Source: Faecalibacillus intestinalis
GTDB taxonomy: Bacteria; Bacillota_I; Bacilli_A; Erysipelotrichales; Coprobacillaceae
NCBI RefSeq assembly: GCF_003024685.1
Contig: NZ_PYLQ01000002.1
Span: 137,062-201,061, forward strand
Length of the DNA: 64,000 nt
Reading direction: 5' to 3'
Every line of letters begins with the position of its first letter. Position 1 is the first letter of the stretch. The notes under the pieces were generated by a model. It ran no database searches. It was not told where the DNA came from and saw only the letters and a list, made by a program, of their open reading frames with translations. Below are positions 1,314-31,184 of the stretch, in pieces. Position numbers and translations under genes: made by a program.

Positions 1314-1339
1314 AATAAGGAATCGCTAGATTCCTTATT
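1314..1339. terminator. bidirectional terminator between RhuM-Fic and hsp20
   Basis: An 11-bp stem AATAAGGAATC / GATTCCTTATT with a GCTA loop sits between the two convergent genes. A-rich flank on the left gives a U-tract for the minus strand. It overlaps the last codons of hsp20. Confidence 0.7.
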
Positions 1340-1775
1340 CAATATAGATAGTAGAACTATTTTCTACTTGTTTCATATCTGCTTTTGGAACAGATAAACG
1401 AAGAACGCCACCTTCATATTTAGCTTTGATATCTTCTTTTGGAATATCTCCTAAATAGAAGCTTCTTGACATATTTCCAACATATCTTTCTTGTCGGATA
1501 TAATGTCCTTGTTCATCCTTTTCATCTTTATCCAATCCCTTACTTGTTGAAATTGTTAAATAACCATTTTCATAATTGATATTGATATCTTCTTTTTTAA
1601 AGCCTGGAAGATCAATATCTACTTCATAGGTATTATCTGTTTCCCTTACATCTGTTTTCATCATATTTCTTCCATGTTTTCCATATAATGGATTTTTCTT
1701 TCCAAAAAAATCTTTATCCATTTCATCAAAGAAATCATCAAATAAATTTTCTGTAAATAGACTAGGCATCATCAT
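1335..1775 (-). CDS. hsp20: small heat-shock protein Hsp20
   Basis: 146 residues, the usual length for bacterial sHsps. The alpha-crystallin domain runs from about 38 to 130 (VDIDLPGFKKEDI, GGVLRLSVPK) and the protein ends in a short IYIE tail with the C-terminal I-x-I-type anchor. It is an ATP-independent cytoplasmic holdase for unfolding proteins. Three ATG codons stand in tandem at the start; AAAGGGG upstream fits the first. Expression is expected to be HrcA-repressed, because a CIRCE element overlaps its promoter. Confidence 0.93.
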   Translation of the reverse strand: MMMPSLFTENLFDDFFDEMDKDFFGKKNPLYGKHGRNMMKTDVRETDNTYEVDIDLPGFKKEDININYENGYLTISTSKGLDKDEKDEQGHYIRQERYVGNMSRSFYLGDIPKEDIKAKYEGGVLRLSVPKADMKQVENSSTIYIE

Positions 1776-2091: not shown

Positions 2092-2556
2092 TTATACCAC
2101 AGCAGGTACAGTTTCTGGCAGGTTCATTTTAGACATCTCATTCTCCACATGAGACTTCTCTGCAATATGATTGTAGACATTCATTGTGATCTGTGCATCT
2201 GAATGACCCATCACATACTGCATAACTTTGGGATTGACATTGTTCTCACCCAATCTGGCACATCCCGTATGACGAAGGGTATGCGATGAAATAGGAGACA
2301 TCAGCTCCGGCTCTCGGTTCTCTTCTTCTGCCAGTTTGCTTTCTTTCTTATTATAGGTATTGACAATATTTTTCAGAAAGCTGTTCACTCCCGCCGGCAT
2401 GATTGGACGTCCATGCTTTGTATTGAAGATGAATCCACTGCGTCCACCAATCTCCACATTACTCTGTAAACCAAGCATCAGGTTCAGCTCTCTCTGTTTA
2501 CGGAACGCATCATATACCATCTGTGTCATAGGAATGTCTCTGATTCCTGCATCCAT
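2092..2556 (-). pseudogene. tyrosine recombinase, C-terminal catalytic fragment
   Basis: 154 residues holding only the catalytic half of a phage/Tn916-type integrase: the early Arg region (DAGIRDIPMTQ), H-x-x-R box (SSHTLRHTGCARL) and the GHSDAQITMNVYNHI segment with the nucleophilic Tyr. The frame stays open upstream only to about 2612 and no arm-binding or core-binding domain exists. Its 5' end is joined to a different short gene. A normal integrase is about 380-400 residues, so this copy should be inactive. Confidence 0.85.
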
Positions 2557-2690: not shown

Positions 2691-3079
2691 TTAGAACTTC
2701 ACTACTTCCGGTTTATGTGTAAATGCTGAAAATGTAGCTGTCGTATTCTTAAAATAGAATACCTCTGTATTTCCATCATATGCTGAGTACATGTTCTTTA
2801 AAGATGGATAAGCATCAAGGACTGTCTTGCTTCTCTTCTATCATCTTCTACAAGTTCGCCTGCTACACGAAGCCACTCTCCATTCTTAAATGCACAGATT
2901 TCCACCTTTGGATTTGCATGAATCTGTTTTGAAACATCCTTCACCTTTCCGGTTTGAATATACAGTTTTCCTTCAAAAATATGTGCTGTTCCAAAAGGCC
3001 TTACCCTTGGTTGATCTCCTTCCACTGTTGCCAAATAATATGTTTCCGCTTCTTTTAAAAAATTTACTACTCGTTCCAT
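2691..3079 (-). pseudogene. pyridoxamine 5'-phosphate oxidase-like flavoprotein, frameshifted
   Basis: The first 80 residues (YYLATVEGDQPRVRPFG..., LYIQTGKVKDVSKQI) are a typical split-barrel FMN-binding domain. After EARQS the frame ends early, but the +1-shifted frame continues as LDAYPSLKNMYSAYDGNTEV and ends at 2691 with PEVVKF. A single indel near 2820 explains this. The intact protein would be about 130 residues, the normal size. Start at 3079 has AGGAGG upstream. Confidence 0.8.
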
Positions 3080-3307: not shown

Positions 3308-4819
3308 TTATTTTACAGTGTCAAAATATCCAATGATTCCAATGTATCCATCCTTCTTTAAAGGCGACCACAATGTATGCAATTTTATTCTATACATCTG
3401 ACTGTTATTTTCCACCGTCGCTTTTATCGTGGCAGATATTTCTTTATTTTGTACAGATGTCTGATGTAATAAAACACGAATACATTGAACATCTTCTTCA
3501 TTTACTCCAAATTCTTTAAACAAATTGAAATTCGGGTTATCTCTCTGACATAATATCTGATGTTCTCCATTTAATATAGTTAATTGACCTGAAACCGCAT
3601 TGTAATCAATCGAATTCTTGCCACTGTTCGATTTGAAGAAATCGATTTTTTCCTGCATGACCTTGACAAGACTCTGTGAATAAATCTGGTTCGGTAAGAA
3701 TTTATCGCTGAGTATTTCATTCGAAAGTCTCTGTATTTCATGATAATGTTTATTATCATCCATCTCTTTACCAGACATTTTTGAAAGCTGAATACTCAGT
3801 TCTTTCAAACACTTAAGGAGGATGGGATTAAATTGTCCGCATTGCCCATCCAGGATCATTTGAATCGCTGTGTCATGATCAAATGCTTTCTTATAACATC
3901 TTTCACTGGTAAGTGCATCATAAACATCAACAATCGATACCACCTGCGCACAGATTGGTATTTCTTCTCCTTTCAGGCCATCCGGATAGCCTTTTCCATC
4001 CCATCTTTCATGATGCCATCTGCAGATTTCCCATGCGGTATGTACCAGTCGATGATCTTGTGGAAAGTCCATATCCTTAATTATAGCTGCGCCAAGCTCA
4101 CTATGTTTTTTCATAATCTTAAATTCTTCATCAGTGAGTCTGCCTGGTTTATTCAATATTTCTTCCGGAATACGAATCTTACCAATATCATGAAGGGAAG
4201 AAGCAGTTGTAATCAAAGCAATATCTGCCTCTGTCAAAGGATAAGCATCTGTTACTTTTACCAGCTGTCTCAGCATCATCTCCGTTGCTGTTTTAATATG
4301 CAGAATGTGTTCTCTGCTCTCGCTATTACGAGATCCCAATATATTACTCATAATCTGGATCATGATATTATTATTTTCTTCTTTTTCGTAAACCTGATCA
4401 TAAACCACATTTATCAGATGCTTTTGGTTCATATAGAGGCCTAAGGTATTCTGAACTCTTTTCTTTACAATCACAGAATCAAACGGTCGTGTGATATAAT
4501 CTGTGATTCCCAGCTCATATGCCTTACGCATAGTATCAACAGCATCTTCAGAAGATATCATAATTACAGGAGTTTCAGCAATACATTGGCTTCTTTTCAT
4601 TATTTCCAAGACTTCAAAGCCATTCATCTGTGGCATATTGATATCTAAAAGCATCAGATCAATTCCAATATTTTCTCCTATCATCTGGATTGCCTGATTT
4701 CCATTTTCAGCTTCCAGATAATTATAAGTATCTCCAAGAATCTCCTTCAATATGTCTCTGTTTAAGTTTGAATCATCTACAATCAGAATTTTTTGTCTTT
4801 TATCCATATTTTTCATCAT
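3308..4819 (-). CDS. response regulator with HD-GYP c-di-GMP phosphodiesterase domain
   Basis: 503 residues. The receiver domain (about 8-125) has the acidic pocket (IVDDSN), phospho-Asp (LLDINMPQMNG) and the conserved Lys region. The HD-GYP domain (about 165-345) keeps HDIGKI, the HH motif (WHHERWDGKGYPDG) and VVSIVDVYDAL, so metal binding and c-di-GMP hydrolysis look intact. The remaining 150 residues form an unidentified, possibly PAS-like tail. It is last in the riboswitch-led operon and overlaps the preceding kinase stop by 4 nt (ATGA), so it is translationally coupled. It is the likely output of the two hybrid kinases. Confidence 0.92.
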   Translation of the reverse strand: MMKNMDKRQKILIVDDSNLNRDILKEILGDTYNYLEAENGNQAIQMIGENIGIDLMLLDINMPQMNGFEVLEIMKRSQCIAETPVIMISSEDAVDTMRKAYELGITDYITRPFDSVIVKKRVQNTLGLYMNQKHLINVVYDQVYEKEENNNIMIQIMSNILGSRNSESREHILHIKTATEMMLRQLVKVTDAYPLTEADIALITTASSLHDIGKIRIPEEILNKPGRLTDEEFKIMKKHSELGAAIIKDMDFPQDHRLVHTAWEICRWHHERWDGKGYPDGLKGEEIPICAQVVSIVDVYDALTSERCYKKAFDHDTAIQMILDGQCGQFNPILLKCLKELSIQLSKMSGKEMDDNKHYHEIQRLSNEILSDKFLPNQIYSQSLVKVMQEKIDFFKSNSGKNSIDYNAVSGQLTILNGEHQILCQRDNPNFNLFKEFGVNEEDVQCIRVLLHQTSVQNKEISATIKATVENNSQMYRIKLHTLWSPLKKDGYIGIIGYFDTVK

Positions 4820-6978
4820 CCCACCAATTTATGAATTACTTTTATCAGTAATTCCACATCAACAGGCTTAGCAACATGTTCATCCATCCCTGCTTCTTTT
4901 GCTTTTATTCTGTCCTCCGTGAACGCATTTGCTGTCATTGCAATGATCGGTATCTCCTTTGCATCCTCTCTGTCCAGAGACCTGATCATCTTTGCGGCTT
5001 CATAACCATCCATGACTGGCATCATAATGTCCATAAGAATGACATCAAATTCACCAGGTTCACTATTTCTGAACAGTTCAACAGCTTCCTGACCATCCCA
5101 GGCTTTTGTCAAGTCAGCACCTTCATTCTGAAGCACAAATTCGGTGATTTCCATATTCAGCTCATTATCTTCTGCCAGAAGAATATGCAGTCCCTTTATA
5201 GATTTTTCGGATGCATCCGTCTGTTCTTCACGTTTATCCGCATCCAGATCTATTTTAAATGGAACCCGAATCACAAATGTCGTCCCTACGCCTTTTTCAC
5301 TTTCAAAAGTAACGGTACCACCCATTTTCTCGACCAGTTTCTTTGTAATCGGCATTCCCAGACCTGTTCCTGTAAATTTCGTGCGGCTTCCGGTATGCTC
5401 CTGTGCAAATGGTTCAAAAATATGCTTCTGAAACTCATCTGTCATTCCGATTCCGGTATCCCGGCAGACAAATTCCATTATCGTCATTTCCGGCTGTTCG
5501 GATGGAATTTCCCTGCAGCTGATATAAATCTGTCCGTTTTCTCTGTTATATTTCACCGCATTCGACAGGATATTCATCATCACACGTTTCACATACATCG
5601 GGCTTCCAATAAGATCACGGTGTATGATTTCTTTTTTCTCCCATACAATCCGGATATTCTGTTCTGCAGCCATCTGCTCGATCACATTAAATACTTCCCT
5701 GAAAATACTGCTCAGATTAAATGGACTCTCTTCCAGAACAACTTCACCTGACTCAAGCTTACTCATATCCAGAACATCATTTACCAGTTCCAGCAACAGA
5801 TTGGAAGCCTCTTTCACCTTTGTCCTGTATTCCGTCTGCTTCTCCATATCATCTGCATAATGGTCTGCCATATTGACCATGCCTCGGATTCCATTGATCG
5901 GAGTCCGGATATCATGGCTCATACGTTGGAGGAACTCTGTTTTTGCCTCGTTGGCGGCTTCTGCCTTTTTTGCAGCTATTAATAGTTCTGCTTTATATTT
6001 TTCATCTTTTTCCTGTTCCAGTTTCTGATGTGCCCTCTTGGTTCTGTATGTCCAGAACCAGAATATACTGAACATCAGGAAATAAAGAAAAATGACACCT
6101 GCTACACTTAATGGAAGATCATGAAACACTTCTGTATCCGGAAGATATGCATAAATATAATAATCCCGCTGTTTCAGCATGATTCCGTAACATCCGCTTC
6201 CTTCATTCTTCAAGTGATAAATGTGCTGACTGTCTGTATGCTTTTTCATTGCCTGAACAACTTTGTTGTCAACCGTATTCTGCCCCAACAGGCTCTCATC
6301 GTTGCTGGCAACAACGATTCCCTCGTCTGCAACAATAATCGTTCCATCTTTCTGAGTACTATAACCATTTAAAAGACCCTGTATCGTCAAAGTATAGTTT
6401 CTGGCAAATTCCGGAGGTGTATAATAATAAACTGCAATGATACCCGGTGCATCTTTTCTGGCACAGGCTGCAATGTCGATATGTGACCCGTCTTCTCTGG
6501 TAAACCGTTCCGAATAGCTTCTTTCTTCATATCCGGTAAAATCCATGATAATATCTTTTTGCAGATACTCTGTAATCTCATTAGCCAGAGACTCATCCGT
6601 GCTGTATTCACAGTCCGTCTTTCCTTCTGCATCCAGTACAAGGATACCATCCACCCAGAGAGTCTGAAGATTTTCTTTCAGGAACTCCTGACTTAGCTGA
6701 CCGCCGTTTTCTATTTCCATGTCGATATTCGTACTCATCTGTCTGACACTTTCAATGGCACGGAGAAGACTTTTGGATTCCGAAGATTCATTATAATGGG
6801 TGTAGGTGGAACACTGCACTTTGACATAATTTACAATCTCTACCATTCTTTTCTCTGCTTCCGCTTTCTCCGCATGAAAGAAATAAAACAGAGAGACTGC
6901 TGCCACACAGATTCCAATCAGACCACCGATCAGCTGGATTCGTTTTTCTCTTTTCTTTCTCTTAATATCCAAGATCAT
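4816..6978 (-). CDS. hybrid sensor histidine kinase 1
   Basis: About 720 residues. One membrane segment near the N-terminus (LIGGLIGICVAAVSLFYFF), an extracellular sensor region of about 260 residues (Cache-like), a second membrane segment (VAGVIFLYFLMFSIFWFW), HisKA with MSHDIRTPINGI, HATPase_c with GTGLGM, and a C-terminal receiver with LMDIMMPVMDGYEAAK. The start at 6978 lies just after GGAGGTGG and overlaps the preceding lipoprotein gene by 17 nt; an upstream ATG at 7020 would overlap by 59 nt. Coupling to the solute-binding gene suggests that lipoprotein feeds this sensor. Confidence 0.9.
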   Translation of the reverse strand: MILDIKRKKREKRIQLIGGLIGICVAAVSLFYFFHAEKAEAEKRMVEIVNYVKVQCSTYTHYNESSESKSLLRAIESVRQMSTNIDMEIENGGQLSQEFLKENLQTLWVDGILVLDAEGKTDCEYSTDESLANEITEYLQKDIIMDFTGYEERSYSERFTREDGSHIDIAACARKDAPGIIAVYYYTPPEFARNYTLTIQGLLNGYSTQKDGTIIVADEGIVVASNDESLLGQNTVDNKVVQAMKKHTDSQHIYHLKNEGSGCYGIMLKQRDYYIYAYLPDTEVFHDLPLSVAGVIFLYFLMFSIFWFWTYRTKRAHQKLEQEKDEKYKAELLIAAKKAEAANEAKTEFLQRMSHDIRTPINGIRGMVNMADHYADDMEKQTEYRTKVKEASNLLLELVNDVLDMSKLESGEVVLEESPFNLSSIFREVFNVIEQMAAEQNIRIVWEKKEIIHRDLIGSPMYVKRVMMNILSNAVKYNRENGQIYISCREIPSEQPEMTIMEFVCRDTGIGMTDEFQKHIFEPFAQEHTGSRTKFTGTGLGMPITKKLVEKMGGTVTFESEKGVGTTFVIRVPFKIDLDADKREEQTDASEKSIKGLHILLAEDNELNMEITEFVLQNEGADLTKAWDGQEAVELFRNSEPGEFDVILMDIMMPVMDGYEAAKMIRSLDREDAKEIPIIAMTANAFTEDRIKAKEAGMDEHVAKPVDVELLIKVIHKLVG

Positions 6979-7777
6979 CCACCTCCAGATACTTCTGGGA
7001 ATCATCCAGATATTTTTCAATAATTTTCAGGGATGTGCCATCCTGCCGCATTTCTTCCAGCGTCTGGCTCATCTGCTCACAGATTCCTCTGTCATCATCT
7101 TTTGCAAAAGCGACACCTATTCCGGTGATCATCAGAGGCTCTTCCAGAATACGGAAGCTTACATCATAATCCTTCATATACTGAACAATAGATTCCTCGT
7201 GTGCTGCAACTGCATCTACATATCCTTTTCCCAGAAATGTATAGATCAGCTCCCTGTGTCCCAGGCTGATCAGATTGCCCAGTTTTGGGATTCTTTCATC
7301 CGTCCGGTTCAGAAAGATACCTTCCGGTTTGGTTGTTGACTGAACAGCCAGGTTCTTTCCCTCCAGGTCACTCAGTTTATAGATATCACTATTCTCATTT
7401 ACAGCGACCACCTGACGGCTTGCTATATATGGTCCCGCCCAGCGATAATCATCAAGACGCCCTTCCATGGAAAAACAGCCCATGATACAGTCAATCTCTC
7501 CGCTTTCCACCAGTTCTTTTTTCTTCTCCCAGTTGATCTGGACAACCTCCACCTGATATCCCATTCTTTTAAATGCTTCCGTAGCCAGTTCTACATCTAT
7601 GCCCGTCGGTACACCATCCTCATTCAGATAATTGTATGGTGGATAGTTGTCGCTGCCAAGCGTAATGACAGGCTTTTCGGTTTCTTCTTTCGTGTTATCT
7701 GTGTTTTTACACCCTGCCAGGGTGACTGCTAAAATTCCCGCAAGCAGAATGCCTGCAATCACTCTTTTTCCTTTCAT
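6962..7777 (-). CDS. family 3 solute-binding lipoprotein
   Basis: 271 residues with a lipoprotein signal (lipobox LAGC at about 19-22). It has the amino-acid-type periplasmic-binding fold (LGSDNYPPYNYLNEDGVPTGIDVELA, TTKPEGIF, YPD-like repeat of two lobes). Such proteins usually serve polar amino-acid ABC importers, but no permease or ATPase is encoded here. Its place between two hybrid kinases suggests a sensory role, presenting a ligand to one of them. The ligand cannot be told from sequence. Confidence 0.88.
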   Translation of the reverse strand: MKGKRVIAGILLAGILAVTLAGCKNTDNTKEETEKPVITLGSDNYPPYNYLNEDGVPTGIDVELATEAFKRMGYQVEVVQINWEKKKELVESGEIDCIMGCFSMEGRLDDYRWAGPYIASRQVVAVNENSDIYKLSDLEGKNLAVQSTTKPEGIFLNRTDERIPKLGNLISLGHRELIYTFLGKGYVDAVAAHEESIVQYMKDYDVSFRILEEPLMITGIGVAFAKDDDRGICEQMSQTLEEMRQDGTSLKIIEKYLDDSQKYLEVDDLGY

Positions 7778-7790
7778 TTTTCTTCTATCC

Positions 7791-10124
7791 CTAACTATCC
7801 TTTTCGATTCTTTTATGTATGGTTACTTTCCATTTATCACTGTTCAATGCCCTGCGGTTCGGTACCCCCCCCCCGGATTTTATACTTCTTATTGTCTTTT
7901 CCAGCACCTTCATCTCAACCGGTTTTGAAACATGTGCATTCATACCGGCTGCCAGAGAATGCTGAATATCCTCTGAGAATGCATTCGCAGTCATGGCAAT
8001 GATCGGAATCGTCTTTGCCAGTTTATGGGAACTTCTGCGGATTGCTTTCGTTGCCTCATAACCATTCAAAACAGGCATCTGTATGTCCATCAGGATCATA
8101 TCATAATCACCTGGAGCAGACTGTTCAAATGCTTTCAAAATCTCTTCGCCATTTTCACAGATGGTACATTCCGCACCTTCAATCTTTAACAGTTCCGTCA
8201 GGATCTCTGCGTTCAGCTCATTATCCTCTGCACACAGGAATCTCATGCCCTGCAGAATATTTCCATCCCGCTCATCTTCTTGTGCCGCCAGAGCAACCGT
8301 TCGATTCTCTGCAATTTTCAAATCTATGAGAACCTCAAAACAGCTTCCCTGTCCCGGTTCACTCTCCACATCAATGGTACCTCCCATTGCTTCAACCAGG
8401 TTCCTGGTAATCGCCATTCCAAGTCCGGTTCCCTGGATCTTATTCGTCACAGAACTTTCCGCACGGGTAAACGGATCAAAGATTGTCTCTTTGAAATCTG
8501 CCGACATTCCCATACCGTTGTCACTGACTAAAAAGCGGTACTTTGCATAGACAGATGACTTTGTCTCACATTCTTCTACTAGAAACTGAATTTTTCCACC
8601 TTCCTGCGTATATTTTATGGCATTCGACAGCAGATTACTGAAAATCTGCATCAAATGAACCTGATCCCCATTCACCCACTCATGACGGATGCTTTCTTTT
8701 ATAATTGTAAGCGTCTGCTTCTTTTCATATATTTGAGAATGAAATATAGTGTCAAGCTCCTGTACAAAATCCAGAATAGAAAAGTCAGAATACTTGAAGA
8801 CTGTTTTTCCTGCCTCAATCTTGCTCATATCCAGAACGTCATTGATAATTCCTAACAGATGTTGTGATGAAATATCTATTTTATCTGCATACTCTATAAC
8901 TTTTGCTTTATTACCTGCATCATGTCTGATCAAAGATGTGATACCAATGATTGCATTCATAGGTGTACGAATATCATGTGACATATTAGACAGGAAATCC
9001 GTTTTCGCCTTATTTGCATTTTCCGCTGTCTGTAAAGCCTCTGTTGTAACATTCTTTGCCTTTTTCAGTTTTTGATTGACTATTTCCATTTCCTTCATTG
9101 TCTGTAAATGAAGTTCATTATTTCTTTTTTCATATTCTGCTTTTTGATCTGCAAGACTAAGTCTGGAAATACTGTAGAATAATCCGGCAAAAAGTAAAAG
9201 TATAAAACCTGCCATGAGTGTTGTTGTACACAGCACCGTTTTCTGGTAATCCATCAGCACATTGTCCACAACTCCCTTTGCCACAATGCATACCAAAATG
9301 GTGTTGTTGCTTTCTATCGGGCAATACCCCAGATAATAGGGGTTCTGTTTTCCCAAAAGTGCAACTCCGGATTCTCTGTTATCAAACTTCTTTTTGAACA
9401 AATCAGCCTCTTCTTCTGTAATAGCCTGTTCCCCTTTTAAATGTTTTAACAAAGAATAATTACGGAAGTATTTATCACCACTCAGGTTCGTATACGTTAT
9501 ATTTCCGTCATCATCCAGCATGAAAAAATATGCTTTCCCATCATAACCTTTCAGTTTTAACATGGAATCCAGTTTCGAATGATCATACACAGTTCCAATT
9601 GCCGTATATGTTTCCCCATTGATAGTGTATTCCTGACATGGAATCGCAACCAGATAACCGTCTTTTTTCTTCTGATCATAATCAAGACACACCAGTTTTC
9701 CAATATTGTATCCATTCTTTAAGTCCAGCAGAAATTTACTTGGCATATCAATCCGCATTTTTGTTCCACATGCTGATATCGCCTGACCATTTTCCTGAAG
9801 GAATATAAGTGTACTTTCCGATTCTTTTTCCCATGCTTCAAAGAAACTTTTGTTCGTATCCGTTTCAAGAGACAGCTCCCTCTCATGAAGTAAAAATTCC
9901 TCAACCAACTGCAGCTGGCTGTAGTATCCACTCACCTGAAGATCATAGGTCTGCTGTATCTGGTCAATAACAGCTCCCATACTGCTTTTTCCATTTTCGC
10001 TGATATACTTATTAGACTTACTTATAAGATACTTTATACAAACTAAGCTTAAAAGAATAATAAGTAGTATAAGCAACAGCCTTGTTATTTTTTTTCTTTT
10101 GTTTACCTTTTGTTCTATCTCCAC
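7791..10124 (-). CDS. hybrid sensor histidine kinase 2
   Basis: 777 residues, GTG start 2 nt after the preceding stop. N-terminal membrane segment (LLLILLIILLSLVCIKYLI), extracellular region of about 240 residues, second membrane segment (TTLMAGFILLLFAGLFYSI), coiled linker, HisKA (MSHDIRTPMNAIIG), HATPase_c (GTGLGMAIT) and receiver (LMDIQMPVLNGYEATKAI). After the receiver the gene runs through a G10 tract and ends in a 30-residue tail without family resemblance. It is similar in design to kinase 1 but not a recent duplicate. Confidence 0.9.
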   Translation of the reverse strand: MEIEQKVNKRKKITRLLLILLIILLSLVCIKYLISKSNKYISENGKSSMGAVIDQIQQTYDLQVSGYYSQLQLVEEFLLHERELSLETDTNKSFFEAWEKESESTLIFLQENGQAISACGTKMRIDMPSKFLLDLKNGYNIGKLVCLDYDQKKKDGYLVAIPCQEYTINGETYTAIGTVYDHSKLDSMLKLKGYDGKAYFFMLDDDGNITYTNLSGDKYFRNYSLLKHLKGEQAITEEEADLFKKKFDNRESGVALLGKQNPYYLGYCPIESNNTILVCIVAKGVVDNVLMDYQKTVLCTTTLMAGFILLLFAGLFYSISRLSLADQKAEYEKRNNELHLQTMKEMEIVNQKLKKAKNVTTEALQTAENANKAKTDFLSNMSHDIRTPMNAIIGITSLIRHDAGNKAKVIEYADKIDISSQHLLGIINDVLDMSKIEAGKTVFKYSDFSILDFVQELDTIFHSQIYEKKQTLTIIKESIRHEWVNGDQVHLMQIFSNLLSNAIKYTQEGGKIQFLVEECETKSSVYAKYRFLVSDNGMGMSADFKETIFDPFTRAESSVTNKIQGTGLGMAITRNLVEAMGGTIDVESEPGQGSCFEVLIDLKIAENRTVALAAQEDERDGNILQGMRFLCAEDNELNAEILTELLKIEGAECTICENGEEILKAFEQSAPGDYDMILMDIQMPVLNGYEATKAIRRSSHKLAKTIPIIAMTANAFSEDIQHSLAAGMNAHVSKPVEMKVLEKTIRSIKSGGGVPNRRALNSDKWKVTIHKRIEKDS
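7865..7874. repeat. homopolymer C10 (G10 in the coding strand)
   Basis: Ten C in a row in the 3' part of hybrid kinase 2, just after its receiver domain. In coding orientation it gives Gly-Gly-Gly. Slippage would change only the C-terminal tail. Confidence 0.8.
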
Positions 10125-10126
10125 TT

Positions 10127-11971
10127 TTACTGTTCAACCTCTATATAGTCTTCCGGTGCTGACGGCTGCTGTCCTTTTGACATTGCTTTGGTCCATGCAC
10201 TTGATAATGTGGTATCTTTAAGCTGCTCAATCTCACATTTCGGATTTATTTTTTTCAAAACAGACATTGTGGTGTCTGTAAGAAGAATCGAGTATTCCTT
10301 TTCTTTGTCTATTTTCTTATCATTAACTGTTAAGTCCTTTAATGAAAATCCACTTTCCGCTTGATTGACGATCATTTTCATACCGGATGCAATTGGTAAT
10401 TCGTATTTATTGGTTACGTAAAAATTCTCATCAGCATCAGCAAGATAATTTTCCACGAGTTCATAAACCTGTTTACCATTGATTTTTGCATAATATAATG
10501 CTGTATCTGAACTCTTCGCTGTCATCATGCCAACCCGGCTGCTGGTGCATTCTCCTTTGTACATAGAGGAAGTGAAATAATAATATGGCGCCAGAGCCAG
10601 CTGTGCCTCATTTTCTTCTCTGATCGTAGTTAAAATGGAAGATGCTGCATCACGGCCATTTCTATCGTTCAGTGAGATGGAATATTCATTTTTAAAATTC
10701 ACCGTTGCTTTTTCTTCTGGATCTTTACGATTCATTACACTGCGCAAAGTATCATAAGCCTGTATTTCATCCATCTCCCCTGACAGTAATCCTTGAACAG
10801 CCTCAAGGCTTGCATCAAATGACTTTTGAGCGGAATATCGGATATAAACAGCATTATTGTTAATTTCCTCTTCCAGTCCAGGCACATCCTGCATCATGGT
10901 TGGAACATCTGTATTCAATGAAATAACACCGCTTCCATCCGCAATCAGCTTTTGCCCCTCTTCTGAAATCATACAATCCAGCACATCCAGTGCAGTATCC
11001 AGTTTCTCCCGGTCTTTTTCCAGGTTTTTGTTAAATGCAATGTTTAAGGACGGAGTCATGTACACATAGGATTCATCCGATGTCTGTGAAAAATAAGGAA
11101 TACGGATCAGCTCCGCATCCATCTGTTTCTGCAGCTGCTGCATAACCGTCGGATGTCCATGAAACATTGCTGATTTTCCTGCGGCAAACATCTGGATTCC
11201 TGTATCGACATCAATATTGATATCTTCTTTACCAAAGTGCGAGTCTTTCAGAAACTGACTGGTTTCTGAAAAAATACGTTTCCATAATGCATCATCAAAC
11301 TTTACTTCATCCGATGCAGTCTCTGCACCGTTTCGCCATTCAATACCATCCAGGCTTGTGAACTCACCGATTGCCGCCGCCTGGATGATCTCATTATTTG
11401 ACCAGTCTTCACCAAGATCCATGGAATACGGTTTTATACCATTATCATAAAACTGCTGACAGGCCTGTACATATTCCTCATAATTTTCTGGAATCTTTAC
11501 GCCATACTGATCAAACAGTGTTTTGTTGGCAATGATCGTCTGCGGAATACCACAGATTGGCAGCCACTGGATTTCATCATCCGCATTCTTATAATATTGC
11601 ACCGCATAAGAATAATACTTAGAAACAACATCATAAGAAGCAAAATCCATAAGATAAGGCTGTAAGTCCTGTGCATCCGTTCCAGAAAATCGACGTACTG
11701 TTATGATATCCGGTAATTCATCATGTTCTTTAAAATAACTGTATAAATCGGTATCATTGTTACCAATAATAAATTCAATATCCTGATCAGGAAACTGTTC
11801 ATGGATATAGGGTGCAATATTTTTCATCAAACGATTTTCCCACAGATAAACGGTAAGATGATCATCGTTTTTAGATACTTCTTTCTTTGACTGTCCACAT
11901 CCAGACAAGACAGCAGTTGCTACAAGTACACCTGACACCACTGCTATCAGACAACGTTTTGCCTTTTTCAT
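10127..11971 (-). CDS. solute-binding lipoprotein with 5'-nucleotidase-C-like domain
   Basis: 614 residues from the ATG at 11971, which has GAGGAAA 10 nt upstream; an upstream in-frame start would lie inside the riboswitch region. The signal peptide ends with lipobox LSGC. Residues about 40-420 resemble a family 1 (sugar-type) binding protein (VYLWENRLMKNIAPYI, MFHGHPTVMQQL). The C-terminal 180 residues resemble the 5'-nucleotidase C-terminal domain (KINGKQVYELVENYL, LPIASGMKM, DLTVNDKKIDKEKEYSILLTD), without the metallophosphatase half. First gene of the riboswitch-led operon. No ABC permease is nearby, so a sensory role is inferred. Confidence 0.82.
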   Translation of the reverse strand: MKKAKRCLIAVVSGVLVATAVLSGCGQSKKEVSKNDDHLTVYLWENRLMKNIAPYIHEQFPDQDIEFIIGNNDTDLYSYFKEHDELPDIITVRRFSGTDAQDLQPYLMDFASYDVVSKYYSYAVQYYKNADDEIQWLPICGIPQTIIANKTLFDQYGVKIPENYEEYVQACQQFYDNGIKPYSMDLGEDWSNNEIIQAAAIGEFTSLDGIEWRNGAETASDEVKFDDALWKRIFSETSQFLKDSHFGKEDINIDVDTGIQMFAAGKSAMFHGHPTVMQQLQKQMDAELIRIPYFSQTSDESYVYMTPSLNIAFNKNLEKDREKLDTALDVLDCMISEEGQKLIADGSGVISLNTDVPTMMQDVPGLEEEINNNAVYIRYSAQKSFDASLEAVQGLLSGEMDEIQAYDTLRSVMNRKDPEEKATVNFKNEYSISLNDRNGRDAASSILTTIREENEAQLALAPYYYFTSSMYKGECTSSRVGMMTAKSSDTALYYAKINGKQVYELVENYLADADENFYVTNKYELPIASGMKMIVNQAESGFSLKDLTVNDKKIDKEKEYSILLTDTTMSVLKKINPKCEIEQLKDTTLSSAWTKAMSKGQQPSAPEDYIEVEQ

Positions 11972-12035: not shown

Positions 12036-12062
12036 AAAAAAGCACCGTCAGACAGACAGTGC
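12036..12062 (-). terminator. riboswitch expression-platform terminator
   Basis: On the minus strand an 8-bp stem GCACTGTC / GACGGTGC (one G-U pair), 5-nt loop and six T follow the c-di-GMP aptamer by about 12 nt. It can stop transcription before the lipoprotein gene. Confidence 0.85.
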
Positions 12063-12073
12063 ACCTCATTTCA

Positions 12074-12145
12074 TGCAACTGGCTGCCATTTTACAGGCCC
12101 TGTAGCTTTGCGTCCCAGACTTTCATCTGGTTTGCCGATTTCCTT
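12074..12145 (-). promoter_or_regulatory. c-di-GMP-I (GEMM) riboswitch aptamer
   Basis: The minus strand carries the class hallmarks in order: GGCAAACC, a GAAA tetraloop, TGGGACGCAAAGC, GGGCCT with following A-rich segment, and ATGGCAGCC. It lies between a good promoter and an intrinsic terminator, and leads the operon ending in an HD-GYP c-di-GMP phosphodiesterase. Whether ligand turns the operon on or off is not clear from sequence alone. Confidence 0.92.
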
Positions 12146-12189
12146 ATTATAGATATAGCTTTTAAACTTATACCAAAAAAACTAATTTT

Positions 12190-12218
12190 ATTATACTTTA
12201 ACGTTCTACTATGCACAA
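12190..12218 (-). promoter_or_regulatory. promoter of the riboswitch operon
   Basis: TTGTGC (12213-12218), exactly 17 bp, TATAAT (12190-12195) on the minus strand. Transcription would start about 40 nt before the aptamer. Confidence 0.7.
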
Positions 12219-12288: not shown

Positions 12289-12456
12289 CTACTTCCGAAG
12301 TCCACGCAGCATTGACATTACTGTTTCCTGCTCATTTGTACTCAGATCGTTCCATATCCCTAGAACTTCTTTCTATTTTTCTGTCAGATTCTCTGAATTA
12401 CCTTCCTGAAAAAACTGCGATAATGTCACGCCCAAAGCTGTACATATTTTTTCAAG
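12289..12456 (-). pseudogene. XRE-type regulator, C-terminal remnant
   Basis: Reading the minus strand from 12456 gives LEKICTALGVTLSQFF, the end of an XRE helix-turn-helix. It is followed by an in-frame TAG, then VLGIWNDLSTNEQETVMSML up to the stop at 12289. The DNA-binding half is missing and the upstream DNA is in another frame. It is the decayed tail of a small element-borne repressor. Confidence 0.7.
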
Positions 12457-12701
12457 TGTTCATGGATCGATAGTTTCTTCTCTTTTCCTATCATTGTCTT
12501 TTTCTCTGTTATTGCCTTTCTTTCAGCTTTCCCCGCATCCTTAACTACTGTATTTGCTTCAACGCCAGTTCTTGGCACAGCTTCTCTGCTCTCATTCTTT
12601 TCTGCTATCTGCTGTTCTTCTTTATTAGGAAGAGACAATGCAAGATACTTTTTGATATTTTCTCCGCCTTGTAACACCTGCTCACAATATTCTATTTTCA
12701 T
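12426..12701 (-). CDS. small hypothetical element protein
   Basis: 91 residues, lysine and glutamate rich, starting on the TAATG overlap with the tnpV stop, so translationally coupled to it. The last residues (HLKKYVQLWA) come from the HTH remnant read out of frame, so the natural C-terminus is probably altered. I do not recognise a domain. Its link with TnpV suggests a transposon-maintenance or unknown accessory role. Confidence 0.5.
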   Translation of the reverse strand: MKIEYCEQVLQGGENIKKYLALSLPNKEEQQIAEKNESREAVPRTGVEANTVVKDAGKAERKAITEKKTMIGKEKKLSIHEHLKKYVQLWA

Positions 12702-13099
12702 TAGTTATCTGCTAAATTGTTTACTAGCAACATTAATACATAAATCAATTCCTTGAGAATAATCTCTTCCGCAATCGCTCTATGCTGATTAGCAGCTCTT
12801 ACCCATGCCATCTGATCTTTCTCTTTATCCGGTAATGGTTCTTTTTCTTCCAACTGTTTCAGGATCACTCCTTCCCGTTCTCTTGCTGCCTTATCTACTT
12901 CCAGAAGGTATTCTCCAATTGTATCCTGTAAAAGCATCACCTGATAGGTTGAATTTCGATGGTTTTTCAGATAATCTCTGCGAAGAAAACCATACTTGCC
13001 AAGTTGCTCCATCTGTTCACCGGATTTATAGGTGAGATTCGGGATTAGATATCCGTTTACATTCGTATACGTTAATTTCATTTTATTAGCACTCTCCAT
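12701..13099 (-). CDS. tnpV: TnpV-like transposon-encoded protein
   Basis: 132 residues matching the TnpV pattern known from Clostridium Tn4451-type elements: MKLTYTNVNGYLIPNL near the N-terminus, then YGFLRRDYLKNHR and a helical C-terminus. Its function is not established. Start at 13099 has AAGGATGAG upstream; an internal ATG at 13081 is the alternative. It marks the right end of the 11.3-kb element. Confidence 0.8.
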   Translation of the reverse strand: MESANKMKLTYTNVNGYLIPNLTYKSGEQMEQLGKYGFLRRDYLKNHRNSTYQVMLLQDTIGEYLLEVDKAAREREGVILKQLEEKEPLPDKEKDQMAWVRAANQHRAIAEEIILKELIYVLMLLVNNLADN

Positions 13100-13316: not shown

Positions 13317-14819
<1,503 letters not shown>

Positions 14820-30990: not shown

Positions 30991-31007
30991 CAAAAAATTC
31001 GTTATCA

Positions 31008-31173
31008 ATGATAGCTCCCCATTACCTTTAGATAATGACAGTTGAATAGGTCTTTCCTAGACACCCAAGATTATACCTCATGCAATAGATACAATCTTTC
31101 GGCAAGTGCTCCTCCTTCATTACCTTGTTGCATCAAATAATAATAATCTCATAACATCTTGCGCCTCTATCTT
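31008..31173 (-). promoter_or_regulatory. lysine riboswitch (L box)
   Basis: The minus strand shows the conserved pieces in order: GATAGAGGCGC, GAAGGAGGAGCACTTGCCGA, TTGGGTGTCTAGGAAAGACC and GGGGAGCTATC closing P1. It leads a DAP/lysine operon, as expected. Confidence 0.95.
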
Positions 31174-31184
31174 TATTTGAGTAA

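Follow-up and report, generated by a model that had tools for sequence, protein, structure and literature searches.

A five-gene sensory operon behind a c-di-GMP riboswitch

In a 64-kb stretch of the Faecalibacillus intestinalis genome (64,000 nucleotides, hereafter the window), a leader RNA of the c-di-GMP-I type precedes an operon of two solute-binding lipoproteins, two hybrid histidine kinases and a REC-HD-GYP protein. The operon was acquired horizontally, and on balance we consider it probable that the riboswitch attenuates its transcription and that leader and operon together form a double-negative c-di-GMP latch. Coordinates of all features discussed below are collected in Table 1.

Table 1. 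Leader elements, operon genes and surrounding insertion, in window coordinates
Feature	Position	Strand	Basis or remark
-35-like hexamer, TTGTGC	12213..12218	-	read from sequence; TTGYGY in other copies
-10 hexamer, TATAAT	12190..12195	-	spacer to -35 of 17 nt
c-di-GMP-I (GEMM-I) aptamer, RF01051	12071..12146	-	covariance model, 62.9 bits
Antiterminator 5' strand, predicted	12073..12087	-	overlaps 3' strand of aptamer helix P3
Antiterminator 3' strand, predicted	12051..12063	-	same as 5' arm of terminator
Intrinsic terminator	12036..12062	-	stem 12062-12042, T6 tail 12041-12036
Gene 1, lipoprotein SBP_bac_1 + 5_nucleotid_C, 614 aa	10127..11971	-	Pfam
Gene 2, hybrid histidine kinase HisKA-HATPase-REC	7791..10124	-	Pfam
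Gene 3, lipoprotein SBP_bac_3	6962..7777	-	Pfam
Gene 4, hybrid histidine kinase HisKA-HATPase-REC	4816..7020	-	Pfam
Gene 5, REC-HD-GYP (REC + HD_5), predicted c-di-GMP phosphodiesterase	3308..4819	-	Pfam
Insertion of ~12 kb holding the operon	1314..~13305		both flanks abut in sister species
Hsp20 gene, of the type native to the host genus	1335-1775		inside insertion
Integrase C-terminal fragment	2092-2556		inside insertion
PNPOx-like gene	2798-3079		inside insertion
TnpV gene	12701-13099		inside insertion

Promoter, aptamer and terminator of the leader

The first-pass annotation had placed a promoter, a GEMM aptamer and a terminator in this order within a segment (12036-12218) that runs from the -35 hexamer through the end of the T tract, and the arrangement was borne out. 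An Rfam scan of the whole 64-kb window matched the c-di-GMP-I model on the minus strand, at 12146-12071, scoring 62.9 bits where the gathering threshold is 35 (E = 6.3e-10). The sole other Rfam family detected in the window is a lysine riboswitch at 31004-31177 (minus strand, 81 bits).

The promoter hexamers were read by eye, and the leader promoter is absent from the list returned by a generic consensus promoter scan. Alignment of the copies shows the promoter segment to be conserved across other loci, with TATAAT kept in every aligned leader-bearing copy and in a copy that has lost the aptamer (L028, see below). The terminator stem comprises eight pairs, five of them GC. Since about 0.7 terminator-like sites are expected by chance in 1.3 kb, where one was found, the evidence for this terminator lies in where it stands, immediately downstream of the aptamer, and not in its mere occurrence.

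The aptamer was compared within a set made up of 60 Lachnospiraceae GEMM regions, the sites of the genomes carrying the operon and the sites of the host, in the 76-nt form. When placed in register, the 39 distinct 76-nt aptamers of this set display two-sided changes in helices P2 and P3. Pairs in both helices are standard in 90-100% of these sequences, the outermost P2 pair only in 28 of 39, and up to five standard pair types occur at one position of P2, the helix with the GAAA loop. The ligand-contact residues, the roles of which are described in PMC3764141, are kept as G20 (12136), A47 (12109) and C92 (12075), in a Vc2 numbering whose register was set by conserved motifs and not by a structure. 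Covariance model, contact residues and covariation all support the leader RNA as a c-di-GMP-I riboswitch, and we infer that it binds c-di-GMP. A reservation applies to the strength of binding because P1 is not evident: single-sequence folds yield no stable or clear P1 helix, and the Rfam model leaves P1 unpaired. In characterised class-I aptamers, P1 supports ligand binding.

An A at position 20 is associated with relaxed or cGAMP-type specificity. The window has a G at this position, and a cGAMP-preferring aptamer is not favoured. An A is found at position 20 in another aptamer of the host (L083 4226-4301, C3:34225-34300), which leads a putative surface protein of 1794 aa. Three natural aptamers (L132, L135 and L155), two of them leading hybrid-kinase operons, carry U where C92 sits and may have an altered ligand or function. 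The Eubacterium ramulus aptamer (L030) has a U at position 41 of P3, resulting in a U.U mismatch by which it may be weakened.

Receptors, kinases and the predicted phosphodiesterase

The five genes are co-directional and all intact in the window; at two junctions they overlap, and at the other two they lie 2 and 13 nt apart. Their annotation as two lipoproteins, two hybrid kinases and a REC-HD-GYP protein agrees with Pfam and with the lipoboxes read from the sequence of both solute-binding proteins (LSGC and LAGC). Gene 1 likely starts at the ATG at 11971, which is common to other copies; its GTG start (12064) is disfavoured because it would fall inside the terminator. Gene 4 is listed with a TTG start and may really begin downstream.

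In gene 1, a family-1 solute-binding domain is fused to a 5'-nucleotidase C-terminal domain, the catalytic metallophosphatase domain being absent. Paralogues about 30% identical to gene 1 are found in several kinase operons. Because its AlphaFold model has a mean pLDDT of 55, the matches of that model to oligosaccharide-binding proteins such as RafE, which have low TM-scores and agree with Pfam, are not counted as evidence. In systems such as LuxPQ and TorTS, an extracytoplasmic binding protein and a membrane hybrid kinase are encoded side by side and no transporter genes accompany them, and the same layout is present here. They belong to other sequence families and have another output, and it is gene order alone that points to a receptor-kinase partnership in the window.

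The first-pass annotation had taken the last gene product to act on the ligand sensed by the leader. Gene 5 shares with PmGH of Persephonella marina (4mcw, PMC4159591) all eight metal ligands (E185, H189, H221, D222, H250, H276, H277 and D305), Lys225 and the GYP motif, and its HD and HHExxDGxGYP motifs are present. It differs from PmGH in having an N-terminal receiver, an extra C-terminal region and an Asn in place of the catalytic Asp183, a residue whose replacement by Ala left PmGH inactive (PMC4159591). The same Asn occurs in the two closest copies of gene 5 and in the other REC-HD-GYP protein of the host, and may be a feature of this HD-GYP subgroup. Judged by its metal site, gene 5 is likely active as a c-di-GMP phosphodiesterase, with a reservation at Asp183.

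Pfam family searches of the host genome gave 15 GGDEF, 5 EAL and 5 HD_5 matches. By these matches, c-di-GMP is made in the host. Next to the 15 GGDEF and nine other predicted phosphodiesterase matches, a single HD-GYP protein may fail to move the pool that is sensed by the RNA.

Both kinases have C-terminal receiver domains, and for this reason an Hpt protein is expected between them and the receiver of gene 5. Pfam detected no Hpt in the operon. A search with the Hpt family found a single one in the host genome, on a different contig (C27:17651). In this region (L082 16020-18648), it immediately follows a second REC-HD-GYP gene, and close behind it comes a further c-di-GMP-I riboswitch, which scores 81 bits and heads a pilin-like gene. 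In the Clostridium fessum version of the operon, a 117-aa Hpt gene is the last of the run. The step from kinases to HD-GYP proposed at first pass thus has both its ends in the operon, kinases of the HisKA-HATPase-REC type and an output protein with a REC domain, but most likely needs a host Hpt encoded elsewhere.

Foreign origin of the operon

A segment of about 12 kb holding the operon is missing at the same place from two sister species and was therefore inserted. In these species, the gene ending at 1313 abuts the GH1 gene ending at 13317, with approximately 30 bp between them. GC content amounts to 35-45% over 2-13 kb, compared with mostly 20-33% in the remaining window. The operon genes have copies of 89-97% identity in several Lachnospiraceae genera. 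For gene 1, six Lachnospiraceae records from different genera contain copies with 95-97% identity over the best segment; among 392 genomes of the phylum of the host, a close copy is present in the host only and the next best match has 22% identity. Between the host and these carriers, RecA identity is 64-67%, and the RecA proteins of the carriers are 78-88% identical to that of Blautia schinkii. The operon is thereby established as a recent horizontal acquisition, and GC content and distribution suggest transfer from Lachnospiraceae, distantly related gut bacteria, to the host. An assembly chimera is not favoured, as the 294-kb contig extends beyond the insertion on both sides and the two flanks are adjacent in the sister species.

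In the search for a vehicle, no match was found among plasmids or viral contigs. No repeat shared by both ends of the island was apparent by eye, and no long inverted repeat joining them came out of a repeat scan run on each end separately. The integrase C-terminal fragment and TnpV are the only transfer or integration genes in the insertion. Positions 12317-12459 contain what is left of a gene for a small XRE-type regulator, cut at ~12459; L026, L029 and L093 have the complete gene ahead of the leader.

Relatives and mosaic history

The leader and all five genes are found in E. ramulus, where gene 3 is split, with a DNA identity of 93% over 12303-4822 and likewise 93% over 4814-3248. Fusicatenibacter has the leader and genes 1-4, and in B. 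schinkii, Blautia P3087 and C. fessum another kinase comes after gene 2. The same leader directly heads an SBP3-kinase-HD-GYP run in Blautia P3087. These arrangements in E. ramulus and a Blautia mean that the association between leader and operon is not a one-off. Against the relatives, dN/dS ranges from 0.06 to 0.22 across all five genes and protein identity from 82 to 97%, both ranges leaving out the distant C27 paralogue; for gene 5, dN/dS against E. ramulus is 0.13. Such values in all five genes indicate that the operon is maintained by purifying selection.

Homologues of genes 3 and 4 stand directly behind a leader of their own in L085 and in L097, in the latter with an HD-GYP gene next. 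Closely similar leaders are followed by a single kinase gene in L088, by a divergent paralogue of gene 1 in L089 and by another kinase unit in L093. The window operon looks like a leader-gene 1-gene 2 unit fused to a gene 3-gene 4-gene 5 unit that has been stripped of its own leader, with the end of gene 2 as the presumed junction. In the Hominisplanchenecus copy L028 (9817-9965), the alignment jumps from 12138 to 12042, a deletion that takes out the aptamer and almost the whole terminator and spares the promoter and gene 1. With its split gene 2, this copy is no clean control.

Hybrid-kinase operons are led by 14 of the 19 c-di-GMP-I sites in six carrier genomes, a biased set that was chosen for carrying the operon. 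Elsewhere in the family, a hand count found a hybrid kinase within the first two genes at 9 of 60 sampled sites and, at three more, a gene for a receiver, kinase or HD-GYP protein at a greater distance. With nine in 60, kinase operons are not what every GEMM of the family leads, most of the other sites being without a kinase, SBP or HD-GYP gene just downstream.

Direction of control

In folds of the growing transcript, P2 and P3 form first, the antiterminator appears at 120-130 nt and the terminator competes after approximately 135 nt. These cotranscriptional folds pair GGCAG.CAGU.GCAU (12087-12073) with 12063-12051. As isolated hairpins, the antiterminator has an energy of -16.1 kcal/mol versus -13.4 kcal/mol for the terminator. 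Folding makes aptamer and terminator mutually compatible and the antiterminator a competitor of both, and no pairing in which the terminator needs a free aptamer strand was found in the folded leader. Since the antiterminator uses the strand needed by ligand-bound P3, ligand binding should result in termination, and the leader is predicted to be a transcriptional OFF switch. The antiterminator arrangement is kept in 10 of 11 close leaders, the exception being L085; compared with shuffled sequences, its complementarity is marginal for most leaders (P ~0.03-0.16) and reaches P of 0.71 in L085.

The closest parallel is Cd1, the class-I OFF switch of the Clostridioides difficile flgB operon (PMC9262584, PMC11477304). 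Measurements on Cd1 showed an antiterminator formed by the switching strand and an aptamer strand, with aptamer and terminator able to coexist (PMC9262584), and PMC11477304 describes the class-I c-di-GMP switches of C. difficile as OFF. Cd1 and the window leader have in common an RF01051-type aptamer, transcriptional OFF control and an antiterminator made of the aptamer 3' strand and the terminator 5' arm, as predicted here by folding. Whereas Cd1 heads flagellar genes, the genes behind the window leader encode receptors, hybrid kinases and a predicted c-di-GMP phosphodiesterase. With a phosphodiesterase operon under OFF control, the loop would be double-negative and therefore self-reinforcing, not homeostatic.

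The proposed circuit and its alternatives

The first-pass annotation had joined these parts into a feedback loop and had given it no sign. The riboswitch and the REC-HD-GYP protein are real, and the loop is now predicted by folding to be double-negative. Without ligand, 12087-12073 would pair with 12063-12051 and RNA polymerase would read through; with c-di-GMP bound, this strand would be held in helix P3, the terminator would form and the operon would be shut. Once expressed, the two lipoprotein receptors would deliver solutes to the pair of hybrid kinases in the membrane, from which phosphate would pass to the gene-5 receiver, probably via an Hpt encoded elsewhere in the genome, and the HD-GYP protein would degrade c-di-GMP. 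Low c-di-GMP would then keep the operon on and high c-di-GMP would keep it off, which is the latch; for external solutes to flip it, the cell would already have to be low in c-di-GMP. Both the phosphotransfer and the latch are deduced from the parts described above.

Ordinary output control by a GEMM RNA is, in our judgement, rather unlikely: the sensory operon would be off in sessile, high-c-di-GMP cells and the HD-GYP protein, one among many, would exert no measurable feedback on the RNA. In most relatives the same leader indeed heads HD-GYP-free operons, with genes 1 and 2 followed by a different kinase in L026, L029 and L032 and a kinase alone in L088. The GEMM sites of the carrier genomes (14 of 19) and of the family elsewhere (9 of 60) lead hybrid kinases whatever the output gene, and a review states that c-di-GMP riboswitches often stand before c-di-GMP-controlled processes, not metabolic genes (PMC11477304). 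This reading leaves the strong selection on the HD-GYP gene within the operon (dN/dS 0.13 versus E. ramulus) and the GEMM that leads SBP3-kinase-HD-GYP directly in Blautia P3087 to be accounted for. The sign could also be the opposite one. If c-di-GMP raised expression of the phosphodiesterase operon and thereby lowered its own level, negative feedback and homeostasis would follow, which is the more intuitive physiology, and PMC12564702 describes Vc2, a class-I switch, as gene-on. Such an ON switch is nevertheless highly improbable, given that the antiterminator competes with aptamer and terminator, that no fold makes the terminator need a free aptamer strand, and that the Firmicute class-I examples compared are OFF (PMC9262584, PMC11477304).

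It is similarly improbable, if less so, that the operon is a decaying passenger, a foreign relic of little effect in its host. An integrase fragment and a TnpV gene do stand on either side of it, the upstream XRE-type gene is cut at ~12459, and copies elsewhere are damaged, with gene 3 split in E. ramulus and gene 2 in L028. In the window, however, the leader and the five genes are intact, and dN/dS against relatives stays at 0.06-0.22. The double-negative latch, which we prefer to these alternatives, can be extended to a horizontally mobile and self-contained device, in which one leader serves interchangeable receptor-kinase-HD-GYP modules and spreads with them among distant lineages of gut bacteria. 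Each new host would lend its Hpt and be put into a bistable c-di-GMP state gated by solutes. We put this extension forward as a speculation, and a doubtful one.

Relation to known systems

The cmrRST system of C. difficile (PMC11477304) likewise has a c-di-GMP riboswitch in control of several signal transduction genes, among them those for a sensor kinase and response regulators. Its aptamer is of class II and acts as an ON switch, and PMC11477304 describes no hybrid kinases or HD-GYP protein for cmrRST. As far as the summaries in PMC12564702 and PMC3971182 go, the work of Weinberg and Sudarsan includes GEMM RNAs before diguanylate cyclase or phosphodiesterase genes. Compared with the GEMM RNAs summarised there, the window offers the same self-control of the messenger, a c-di-GMP-sensing leader on a turnover gene, but with the enzyme closing a receptor/hybrid-kinase operon that has moved between distant gut bacteria. 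GEMM leaders on c-di-GMP enzymes are already known, and it is the mobile, kinase-rich setting that is unusual here. A literature search in which few subscription journals were covered retrieved no paper on this receptor-kinase-HD-GYP arrangement or on its transfer.

If sign and enzyme hold, the operon would represent a natural double-negative c-di-GMP switch with sensor, input and output encoded together, moved as one unit between bacterial groups of one gut niche. Natural comparisons for it exist: in L028, the same promoter and first gene are found with aptamer and terminator deleted, and in L085, L088, L089, L093 and L097 nearly the same leader stands before different receptor-kinase modules.
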